From contig CP099850.1 of NCBI GenBank assembly GCA_030062745.1, positions 5,332,001 to 5,396,000 on the forward strand: DNA of 64,000 bases. Direction: 5' to 3'. The DNA is from Capitulum mitella (Eukaryota; Arthropoda; Thecostraca; Pollicipedomorpha; Pollicipedidae). Below the pieces are notes generated by a model. That model was not told where the DNA came from. It saw only the letters and a list, made by a program, of their open reading frames with translations, and did no database searches. Numbering within the stretch: the stretch's first letter is position 1; each line of letters begins with the position of its first letter. Below are positions 2,669 to 40,791 of this stretch, piece after piece. The position numbers and the translations under genes are program-made.

Positions 2669-5600
2669 CTGCGGCAGAACGAGCCAACATTCAGCAGCCG
2701 ACAACAGGACAAACAAGGCCGCGGCAGAGCGAGCCAGCAGTCAGCAGCCGACAACAGGACAAACAAGGCCGCGGCAGAGCGAGCCAGCAGTCAGCAACCG
2801 GCAACAGGACTGACAGTGCCGCGGCAGAGCTGTCAACAGCCGGCAACAGGACAAACTAGGCAGCGGCAGAGCAAGCCAGCAGCCAGCAGCCGGCAACAGG
2901 ACAAATAAGGCTGCGGCAGAGCTGTCAGAAGCCGGCAACAAGACAAAATAGATGGCAGAGGAACGAAACAGCAGTCGGCAGCCGACAACAGGACAAATAA
3001 GGCCGCTGCAGAGCGAGCCTAAACTCATGAACCAGCAACAGGGCAAACGACCCAGCAAATCTACACCAGGAGACTGAAACCTCGCAAAATGAAACTAAGT
3101 CAATACGATTTAACGCATCTGATACCTTTAACCCTATTCCCGGCAGGGGGGGCTGAATCCTCCCCCTTGGGTTTTTTGCTTGCCAGCTCCAGGGTTTTTA
3201 ACGCAGCTCCACGAAACTTGGTGGCTTTTCCTAGACATTTTTTCTACGCGCCGTGACAAAATTTCAGAATTATATTTTGCTCAGTGGCGGAACCAGGCAA
3301 TGTTTTTGGGAGGCACTTCAGGCCATTTTTGGCCTTGTTGAGGTTAAAAAAAATGTCTGCCAAAAACAGAGTTTTTAGATAAAGCTTAAAGTTTTATATG
3401 GCTGTATAGTTAAATGGTTGGACAATGCGCATATGTAATTTTGTTTATCTGAGGTCACTTTACAAGGTCAGGTCAAGGTCAAAAGGCAAAATTTGTTTTT
3501 CGCTATAATTTCGGCGCGATTTTTTCAAACGCCAAACCCCGAATATATATGACGTAGAAGAGTGCCCTCTACTTGTGTACGAAGTTTCAGCTTGATATCA
3601 GGTCGGGTCACGGAGCTATGACCTAAAATGTCAATGCGTTTACCCTATATCGGAATAGCCGTAAAATGAATTTTTTGAAATAGAGTGAATTCAAATGATT
3701 GAAAACGTTTACAAATAATATTAAATGCACACGAAATCATTCTGAGTGATCCCAAGGTCACCGGACGTCATTTAAGGTCAAAGGTCACAAGTTGATCTGA
3801 AGAACGTGTGACCATGGCAGTTTACCCTTTTTCATGGTACCCTGGCACCGCCTATGCTAACATTATACAAACATTGTAATGCGATTTGTACTTCTTTAGC
3901 ATAACATGACTAGCAGAAGCCAAAAAAGTGTTTTTGCCTCTTTTGTTCATTCAATTGTCAGAAAGCTAATCCTCCTATTTTTTGAAACGCGGTGAACGCC
4001 CATGAATTTTCCCAAAATTTCGGGTTTGTGTACCTATGGTGAAAGCCCTATCCATAATCTCTCGATTCATACCAGTTTCATTGAAATCGGTCGAGAAACA
4101 ACGGAGTTATAAGAAGTCCAAAAATACCCCCATTTTGACATTTTTGCCCCCCTGTATCCACACATTTCAAAATTTTGAATTTTTTTTTAATAAAAATGTA
4201 GCTCATGTCATGGCGAATCGAATGCCGTTTGTTGCGATGAAATCGGACAAGTAGTTCTCGAAATCTCAGGGGGGGGAGCGAATCCGCCCCTTCCCCTGCC
4301 GGGAATCGACCAAACCGTCTAGCCCTCCGGGAATAGGGTTAATAGACATTTAAACTGGCAGAGGTGGCCTTTGTCGACAGATTTTGAGTACAGCAAATAC
4401 ACTTTGTCATGGAAAAGACGGAACAAAAAAACACTGTACGGAGAACTTATTTCTGACGTTTACGCTCCATGAATTTAAGATCAGCAAACAACAACAACAA
4501 GCAATGCAAACAACGTAGAATAAAGTCCTGAAACACATCTTAAAACAAGCTTAAGTTCAAATGATTCTCGTCAGCTTTCAAGAGTCTGGAGTGGAAAATG
4601 TTGGCAACTGACAGATGATCAGGCCCAGTGTCTGAACGTCAGCAAGCCCCACGGCAGCGCATCGCAGGCCTCGCGTAGCGAGAGTACTGAGCAGACAGGG
4701 GTCGGCATTATTAGTATTTTCAGTACAGTCTGGGCCTGCCAAAAATGTCTGGAACCCCTCTCTTTTGATTCCCAACGTTAGCTTGGTGGAGGACTGTGAC
4801 GCCAACGACGGCCGGCGGCATCTCGTCTCGGGCCTCCAGGGTGTCTGCCCGCCGAAAGAAGCTGCGTCCCTGGAAGCAGGGCATGACAGCACGACGATAG
4901 CCCGTCTGGACACTGGGCTGGGGCTATGTCCACTCGGCGTCTGGCGCTCTCCCCCCTCCCCCCGAACCAGCGAGTCACTCACAGACGTCGCCCAGGTTGA
5001 TCACGCAGGTGCCGACGTTGCCCAGTCGGTCCACGACGCTGATATTGGCCTTAGGGTGGCAGCAGGAGGTGCGGTACGTGGCCTGCATCTGCTGGATCCC
5101 GGCCACGAACGTGTCGCTCGTCAGCTGGCCCACGCCGCTCGGGAACACGTGCACCTCGTGGATGCCTGCGGGCGGCACGTGAAGTGCATGCCTATGGATG
5201 TCGGGAGTGGGTTTGGTGCGAATCCAGAGGACGGGAAAGTCCGCTGGCCTGCTAGTGATGACGTCTGAGTCGCTCATGATGTTTTAGAGATGATGGACTT
5301 TCTTACATTTTTCGACAAAACTTAAAACACCACAACTATCTGCCGTGAGAAGATGTATATAGATACTGTGATATATATAAGATATGTATAGATGCCGTGA
5401 CACGATATATTAATATCGTGTCACGGTAAAGGCACAATATTGCAAAGACTATTGAAATGCACGATTTAATCGACTTCTTGCGCGGTATCAGTCACATCTG
5501 CGTGGATGAGTCGCAAGCAGATAGTTCAGTTTAATAGCAAAATGCCTGACCACAGCACATTCCACTTTTTCCAAGAGCTACACCTCTCAGAGAAAATTGC

Positions 5601-39517: not shown

Positions 39518-40791
39518 GCCTATTCCGGGCAGGGCGGCCAAATCCCCCCTTGCCTTTTTGCTTGCCAATTCCAGGCTTTTTGACGCAGCTTCACGGAACT
39601 TGGTCAAAATGACCTCAGTAGTCGGTGCGCCCGAAAACACCGATAAACGACAACAACGGAACTCGGTCACTTTTCCAAGGTATTCTTTCTAAGTATTGTG
39701 ACAAGATTTTGAAATTCTATTTTTTCAGGGGCGGAGCCGGGCAACGTTTTTGGGAGGCACCTCACGCCATTTTTGGACCTGTTGAGAGTAGAAGGAAAAT
39801 GACGACCAAAACTAGCGTTTTTAGATAGAACTGAGAGCTTTACATTGATGTATAGCTAAATAGTTGGGCAACGTACAAATGCAATTTTGTTCATCGGAGG
39901 TTACTTAACAACATCAGTTCAAGGTCAAAAGTCAAAATTTGTTTCTGTAGTAATAATTTTGGCACTATTTTTTGAAATGCCTAACCCAGAATATGGTTGA
40001 CTTAAAATGGTGCCCATTTTAGACACTGACATCTTAGGTCATAGCTCCGTGACCCGACCAGATATCAGGTCACGGAGCTATGACCTAAAATGTCAGTGCG
40101 CATACCCTATATCACAATAGTTGTGAAGTGAAATTTTTGAAATAAGTAAATTCACATGATTGAAAACGTCTACAGATAATATTAAATGCATATGAGATCA
40201 TTCCAAGTGACTTCAAGGCCACCGGAGGTCATTTAAGGTCAGAGGTCAAGAGTTGGTCTGAAAAACATGTGGTCTTGACAGTTCCCCTTTTTCATGTTCC
40301 TGGCACCGCCTGTACTAAGATTATACAAACAGTGTAATACGATTTATTTTTCTTTAGCATAACATGACTAGCAGAAGCCAAAAAGGTGCTTTTGCCTTTT
40401 TTGTTCGTTCAGTTGTTGGAAAACTAATCGCCCTATTTTTAAAATCCTGTGAACGCCTATGGATGTTCTCAAAATTTCAAATATATGGACCAATGGTAAA
40501 AGTCCCATCCATAATCTCTCGATTCATGCCAATTTCATCAAAATCGGTCGATAAACAACGGAGTTATAAGAAGTCTAAAAAATATCCCCAATTTTAACCT
40601 GTTTGCTCCCTCCTATATCCACCCTTTTCAATATTTCGAAAACTTTTTTAATGTAGTTTACGTCATGGGAAATCGATTGCCGTTTTTGCGATGAAATCGG
40701 ACGAGTAGTTCTCAAGATCTCAGGGGGCCGGATCCGCCCGCCCCCCCCCCCGCCGGGAATCGGCCATACCGCTAGCCCTCCGGGAATAGGG
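39518..40791 (+). mobile_element. piggyBac-like non-autonomous element, copy C
   Basis: Same orientation as the copy at 3132. Left TTAA at 39514-39517; the right flank is CTAA (40792-40795), so one site has mutated. Ends are GCCTATTCCGGG and CCGGGAATAGGG. Older than the other copies judged by end decay. Contains a unique 21-bp hairpin at 40034-40088. Confidence 0.75.

Follow-up and report, generated by a model that had tools for sequence, protein, structure and literature searches.

The 64,000-nucleotide stretch analysed here (the window; C12:5332001-5396000 of the 477-Mb, 16-contig genome of Capitulum mitella) carries three copies of a repeat family, here termed M1, whose members are flanked by TTAA and bear paired tracts of G and C near their ends. 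An earlier note on this DNA had listed alignable elements at 3132, 21979 (inverted) and 39518, and these were borne out as one family: E1 occupies 3128-4342 on the plus strand (TTAA to TTAA inclusive; 92% identity to the family majority), E2 lies inverted at 21975-23201 on the minus strand (TTAA to TTAA inclusive; 94%), and E3, an old plus-strand copy with a decayed TTAA, spans 39514-40795 (83-84%). Measured against the majority sequence of a 29-copy set, E1 diverges by 7.3%, E2 by 4.6% and E3 by 14.6%. The ends of E3 have decayed to TTAAGCC on the left and CTAA on the right, and its left end is without any run of four or more G; the copy also exceeds the M1 consensus by about 65 bp, has additional sequence close to its left end and holds a 44-bp inverted internal duplication. 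The open-frame list shows no stop-to-stop frame of at least 120 amino acids inside E1, E2, E3 or the further element E4 described below.

A genome-wide search with the M1 ends, as proposed in the earlier note, returned 5,272 exact matches to the left end (TTAACCCTATTCCCGGCRGGG) and 5,573 to the right end, and none for either string when reversed as a control, from which it follows that the ends are not a product of chance. Twenty copies were fetched from the left ends that head the C1 list, and all 20 have a right end about 1.2 kb away, allowing up to three mismatches, with TTAA on both sides. Of the exact left ends, 71 among the first 100 in the list pair with an exact listed right end at 1.15-1.3 kb. 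Fetched copies measure 1,194-1,226 bp, the family length being about 1.21 kb. The 29-copy set, which consists of 30 rows minus the mis-paired L055_+_4506_5721, diverges from its majority by 3.4-14.6% over the whole element; these figures may lean low because eight of its rows (L001-L008, L001 being E1 itself) were chosen by similarity to E1. M1 and its relatives are a real, well-bounded, high-copy non-autonomous group of piggyBac type, and no paper on the M1 family was found in the literature searched, a negative limited to those searches. If each counted end stands for one copy, some 5,000 copies of 1.2 kb make up roughly 1.3% of the genome.

Both ends of M1 carry the same 12-bp terminal repeat, CCCTATTCCCGG, and the element reads CCCTATTCCCGG...CCGGGAATAGGG; the tips of Trichoplusia ni piggyBac also start CCC. 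The left end is CCCTATTCCCGGCAGGGGGGGCGGAATCCGCCCCCCC, and the right end is identical to it apart from 28 inserted bp. The consensus left end, CCCTATTCCCGGCA-GGGGGGG-CGGAATCCG-CCCCCCC, forms a G-tract/C-tract palindrome, while the right end, read inward, consists of CCCTATTCCCGG, a 20-bp insert, a second ATTCCCGG, CA and the G-tract, so that the 28-bp displacement of the right palindrome is the sum of the 20-bp insert and an 8-bp duplication. The left G-tract begins at bp 15 and the right one at bp 43, with consensus palindromes centred at bp 26 and bp 54.5. The earlier note had described a hairpin just inside each end, which is accurate for the left end of M1, whereas in the right end of M1 and in one end each of the elements at 31203 and 35289 the G-tract begins 26-28 bp further in. 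Across the genome, the inner repeat is found at the allowed gap of 10-40 bp in 4,956 exact right ends, and among the first 100 of these in the list the offset is 28 bp in 97 and 27 bp in three. Within the 29-copy set, the left palindrome reaches at least 9/11 pairs in 23 copies; with centres 22-36 tried, 20 of these have their centre at bp 25-28. The right palindrome does so in 19 copies, and 18 of them, with centres 50-66 tried, have it at bp 52.5-56.

The palindromes of the window's elements were judged by pair count, with 558 further TTAA half-sites in the window as controls. None of these controls reaches the left palindrome of E2 (23158-23184, minus strand; 11/11 pairs, centre bp 25), and the displaced right palindrome of E2 (22021-22049, minus strand) forms 10/11 pairs around bp 60 with a 13-base G-run. 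The left and right palindromes of E2 and of E5, another element of the window, are rare (reached by 0-0.9% of controls), and those at the right ends of E3 and E4 are moderately rare (3-4%). The left palindrome of E1 (3146-3166, plus strand) has decayed to 7/11 pairs, and its displaced right palindrome (4269-4300 with flank, plus strand) has likewise decayed. Both ends of E1, the left ends of E3, E4 and E7, and both ends of E6 do not rise above the background.

The target site could be read from one M1 copy, L041, outside the window's own E1-E3, which sits inside another repeat and whose flanks, joined at one TTAA, served as a search query. All 40 scored paralogues of this site match across the joint at 91-96% identity, and the ten that were fetched each hold exactly one TTAA (CTTAAG at the joint), which for this one copy answers the objection named in the earlier note, empty sites lacking a single TTAA; a more distant paralogue, L026, is gapless at the joint but has TTTG in place of the TTAA.

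The single-TTAA empty paralogues of this copy, the CCC...GGG termini, the 12-bp repeat and an end asymmetry like that of T. ni piggyBac support piggyBac-type mobility. We favour, at a probability of about 0.85, the reading of M1 and its relatives as non-autonomous DNA transposons from the piggyBac superfamily, mobilised by a transposase acting in trans, with the palindrome gripped as duplex DNA by a dimer of the cysteine-rich domain (CRD). PMC2872659 defines piggyBac elements by a terminal repeat of 12-19 bp and the terminal motif CC[C/T]T, and the 12-bp CCCTATTCCCGG of M1 agrees with both. For T. ni piggyBac, PMC7351741 reports a palindromic internal repeat of 19 bp in the left end (bp 17-33), bound by a CRD dimer, and a right end that is 28 bp longer, its bp 34-63 being near-identical to left bp 7-35 by way of a 17-bp insertion and a duplication. 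M1 resembles this arrangement (LE35/RE63) in its TTAA target, its left palindrome and a right palindrome lying 28 bp deeper through insertion and duplication; subterminal palindrome, 28-bp displacement and duplicated inner repeat are all present. Unlike the T. ni element, M1 has a palindrome of unrelated sequence (G-tract, CGGAATCCG, C-tract), encodes no transposase, is 1.2 kb long and exists in thousands of copies. PMC7351741 also states that in cells the native transposase both excises and integrates only the asymmetric pair of ends, and that lengthening the right end by five bp removes about half of the activity.

By analogy, the core of a piggyBac-type transposase provided in trans would hold the outermost 12-16 bp of both M1 ends, while a dimer of its C-terminal CRD would bind the subterminal G-tract/C-tract palindrome in duplex form. 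The right palindrome lies 28 bp further in, after the second copy of the inner repeat, which may leave room for a second transposase dimer, and cut-and-paste movement into TTAA with seamless excision would then follow.

The earlier note had suggested that the paired tracts may be recognition or folding signals. The position of the palindrome, as in T. ni piggyBac, favours a CRD binding site, and it is unlikely that the tracts instead extrude as hairpins (cruciforms) or form G-quadruplexes and so give a folding signal, for excision or for replication, rather than a duplex protein site. Folded as single-stranded DNA, the consensus left end of M1 reaches -19.3 kcal/mol (z -4.1; none of 200 shuffles as good), and the loose length of the G-runs also fits a folding signal, but the right end of M1 (z -1.4; 16 of 200 shuffles as good) and E5 (z -1.8; 13 of 200) are little better than shuffles and the E6 end is no better (z -0.8), so that one of four ends folds far better than its shuffles. 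At each end, moreover, the palindrome is found where piggyBac has its CRD site, a placement not required of a folding signal.

A mover from another TTAA-specific superfamily, Kolobok or Sola3, is most improbable. Sola3 likewise duplicates TTAA, and the 28-bp asymmetry of the ends, which agrees with piggyBac, speaks against both, in a comparison that included neither the ends of Sola3 nor a genome search for Kolobok or Sola3 transposases. TTAA duplications are also made by Kolobok, whose termini are 5'-RR...YY-3' according to PMC9587614, and Kolobok was rejected since M1 ends in 5'-CC...GG-3'.

Returning to the piggyBac reading, other members of the superfamily show both likenesses and differences. 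Among coral elements, the CMITE families of Acropora and AmiPB1-6 share with M1 the TTAA duplications and terminal repeats beginning with CCC, and the repeat of AmiPB4, CCCATTCCCTGCCACA, is close to the ends of E4 and M1; the CMITEs are, however, only about 100 bp long with a conserved 75-bp interior, and one CMITE family seems to derive from a known piggyBac (PMC2872659), whereas no parent has yet been found for M1. The piggyBat element of Myotis lucifugus belongs to the same superfamily and has imperfect palindromes in its left end that are bound by C-terminal domains (PMC11707139).

The search for an autonomous partner with the same termini, also suggested in the earlier note, started from 118 DDE_Tnp_1_7 domain matches in the genome, of which 30 piggyBac loci (L009-L038) were read with 1.5-kb flanks, along with the flanks of the copies C11, C13, L027, C3 and C15. 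M1 termini were found on none of these loci or flanks, and the young families that were present have other ends; the earlier note's piggyBac-driven group is supported in part, by target site, termini, repeat and asymmetry, and the loci read hold no autonomous piggyBac with M1 ends. Of the 30 loci, 27 carry one or more ends of family A (CCCATTAACGCCCAG) or family B (CCC[A/T]TTAGTGCCCA), and neither type was seen at L013, L014 (both family A by protein) or L027. Searches with the A and B proteins recovered further piggyBac lineages that are 27-80% identical, many of which contain stop codons. The flanks of C11 and C13 showed one A-like end and one outward-facing neighbour of E5 type, those of C3 and C15 at most one other end, TTAACCCGGCACCGCC, and of the 92 ends of E4 type listed on C1 and C2 (of 449 genome-wide) one lies within 8 kb of a piggyBac match, facing away from it.

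Families A and B share TTAA and CCC termini with M1, and each has several long open frames; in addition, the left end of B has a weak palindrome (8/12 pairs) centred at bp 25.5. Even so, spread of M1 in trans by family A or B is improbable. Their terminal repeats differ from that of M1 past the first CCC, they lack G-tracts and possess a transposase, and they are younger, with a median divergence from the majority of 1.9% (A) and 2.3% (B) in domain DNA against 3.4-14.6% in M1 over the whole element, coding and non-coding sequence not being strictly comparable. Since M1 copies are more diverged than those of A and B, a source transposase that has been lost or has decayed is plausible.

Two further loci came to light. 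L027 (C2:27090679-27092457, minus strand) has an intact 593-amino-acid frame with a piggyBac domain, about 50% identical to family A; no end of A, B or M1 type lies within about 3 kb of it, the only TTAACCC-type end being of E5 type and 2.7 kb off, and it may be a domesticated transposase. L063, a 6.4-kb interval from an M1 left end to an M1 right end, was set aside as an autonomous candidate because it proved to be two separate M1 copies flanking a cuticle-protein gene (Chitin_bind_4, 1.6e-13), a gene that marks the host as an arthropod.

Besides M1, the window holds other TTAA elements with G-tracts, three of which (E4, 31203-32622; E5, 35289-38102; E6, 54411-55732) are probable distant relatives. 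E4 lies on the minus strand, its left TTAA being 37 bp before the start at 31240 given in the earlier note, and its G-run begins at bp 14 in the short-type end (32622) and at bp 42 in the displaced-type end (31203), an offset of 28 bp. The short-type end matches the M1 left end at 67.6% over 105 bp (E 0.001), and the end at 31203 begins CCAT, off the CC[C/T]T motif. E5, on the plus strand, is the element placed at 35293 in the earlier note, with its bounds now corrected, and is split by a Tc1-like transposon; its short-type end at 35289 has a G-run from bp 14 and its displaced-type end at 38102 one from bp 40 (offset 26 bp), it starts with CCCG, again off the motif, and it matches M1 at 71.6% over 67 bp (E 0.012). 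The nested element (35481-37066, minus strand, with TA flanks) lies outside the family and carries HTH_Tnp_Tc3_2 and DDE_3 domains, which fall in separate frames; before this insertion E5 was about 1.2 kb long.

E6, on the plus strand, is present where the earlier note had placed an element at 54415, with bounds now corrected, and has symmetric ends, the G-runs starting at bp 16 and 15, with weak palindromes. E7, given in the earlier note as an element at 32638, shows a left end only (32634-32680, plus strand), beginning TTAACCC with a 12-bp stem and a 14-nt loop centred at bp 24.5 by direct reading, not above background by pair count; no right end was seen. The view that none of the elements encodes a transposase agrees with the frame list for E1-E4; E6 contains a 142-amino-acid stop-to-stop frame (54814-55242, minus strand) and E5 the frames of the nested Tc1-like element. 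Neither E6 nor E7 gave a match to M1 passing E = 1. In an alignment of left ends there are scattered common stretches beyond the palindrome, for example TCACGAAACTT in M1 and E5 and AGAAACTTGGTG in E6, which make common descent plausible, though weakly supported.

That the G-tracts of E4-E7 reflect chance or homopolymer drift, leaving M1 as the sole real family of this type, would fit the several individual window ends whose palindromes do not exceed those of other TTAA sites, the missing right end of E7 and the weak or absent matches to M1. We nevertheless consider this quite improbable, as the exact E4 short-type end has 449 matches in the genome against none for its reversed control, the offset recurs in E4 and E5, and both palindromes of E5 are rare against the background.

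Several points weigh against a piggyBac-type group with CRD-gripped palindromes, in addition to the lack of M1 termini on the piggyBac loci read. The length of the M1 G-run varies from 2 to 14 in 28 left ends and from 3 to 13 in 26 measurable right ends, unlike a fixed protein site, and several window ends do not exceed the palindromic background of the 558 control half-sites. The similarity of E4 and E5 to M1 is weak, and the symmetric ends of E6 are without the 28-bp displacement of the T. ni-type layout. The displacement of the M1 right end, being shared by descent, counts as one event however many copies show it. No palindrome was found at the expected place in the right end of B or in the ends of A, and, according to PMC11707139, the right end of piggyBat has no palindrome and there is no T. 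ni-like paired asymmetric layout, which tells against such a layout as a universal rule.

AGGTCA is the half-site bound by nuclear receptors. The M1 consensus contains nine copies of it (in the M1 interior of the window they lie, for example, at 3440-3490 and 3750-3800), compared with a mean of 0.45 and a maximum of three in 200 shuffles; the window as a whole has 80 (29 when shuffled), or 54 (27) with E1-E3 removed (30 shuffles), and the motif is present too in the repeat around L041. Elsewhere in the window, probable exons of a VWA7-like gene extend over about 4600-17800 on the minus strand, an extent judged from open frames only, with E1 past one side and E2 past the other; VWA7_N was matched at 15839-16210 (4.4e-15), and the frames at 7528-7962 and 11388-11750 are without a Pfam match. 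Tandem arrays occur at 2641-3092 (unit spacing 50 bp), 9718-9882 (33 bp), 48480-49032 (31 bp), 50380-51293 (23 bp) and 61907-62196 (95 bp).

The M1 group is otherwise of a known type, and its point of interest is that the end geometry of T. ni piggyBac recurs with a different palindrome; M1 thereby shows the puzzling end asymmetry of piggyBac outside the one transposon in which it has been studied. We put forward, tentatively and as somewhat less than an even chance, that the G-tract families represent a piggyBac lineage whose CRD, in contrast to those of T. ni piggyBac and piggyBat, recognises palindromes made of a G-tract and a C-tract, with the 28-bp offset between left and right ends retained. 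Since a second family, E4, repeats the offset at 28 bp and a third, E5, has one of 26 bp, a general rule for the spacing of two dimers becomes testable. If such a lineage exists, the offset would be a matter of geometry conserved, as a rule, across many piggyBac transpososomes, set by the spacing of two dimers and independent of the sequence of the palindrome, and the thousands of natural M1 copies are a record of the changes in spacing and palindrome that have been tolerated.

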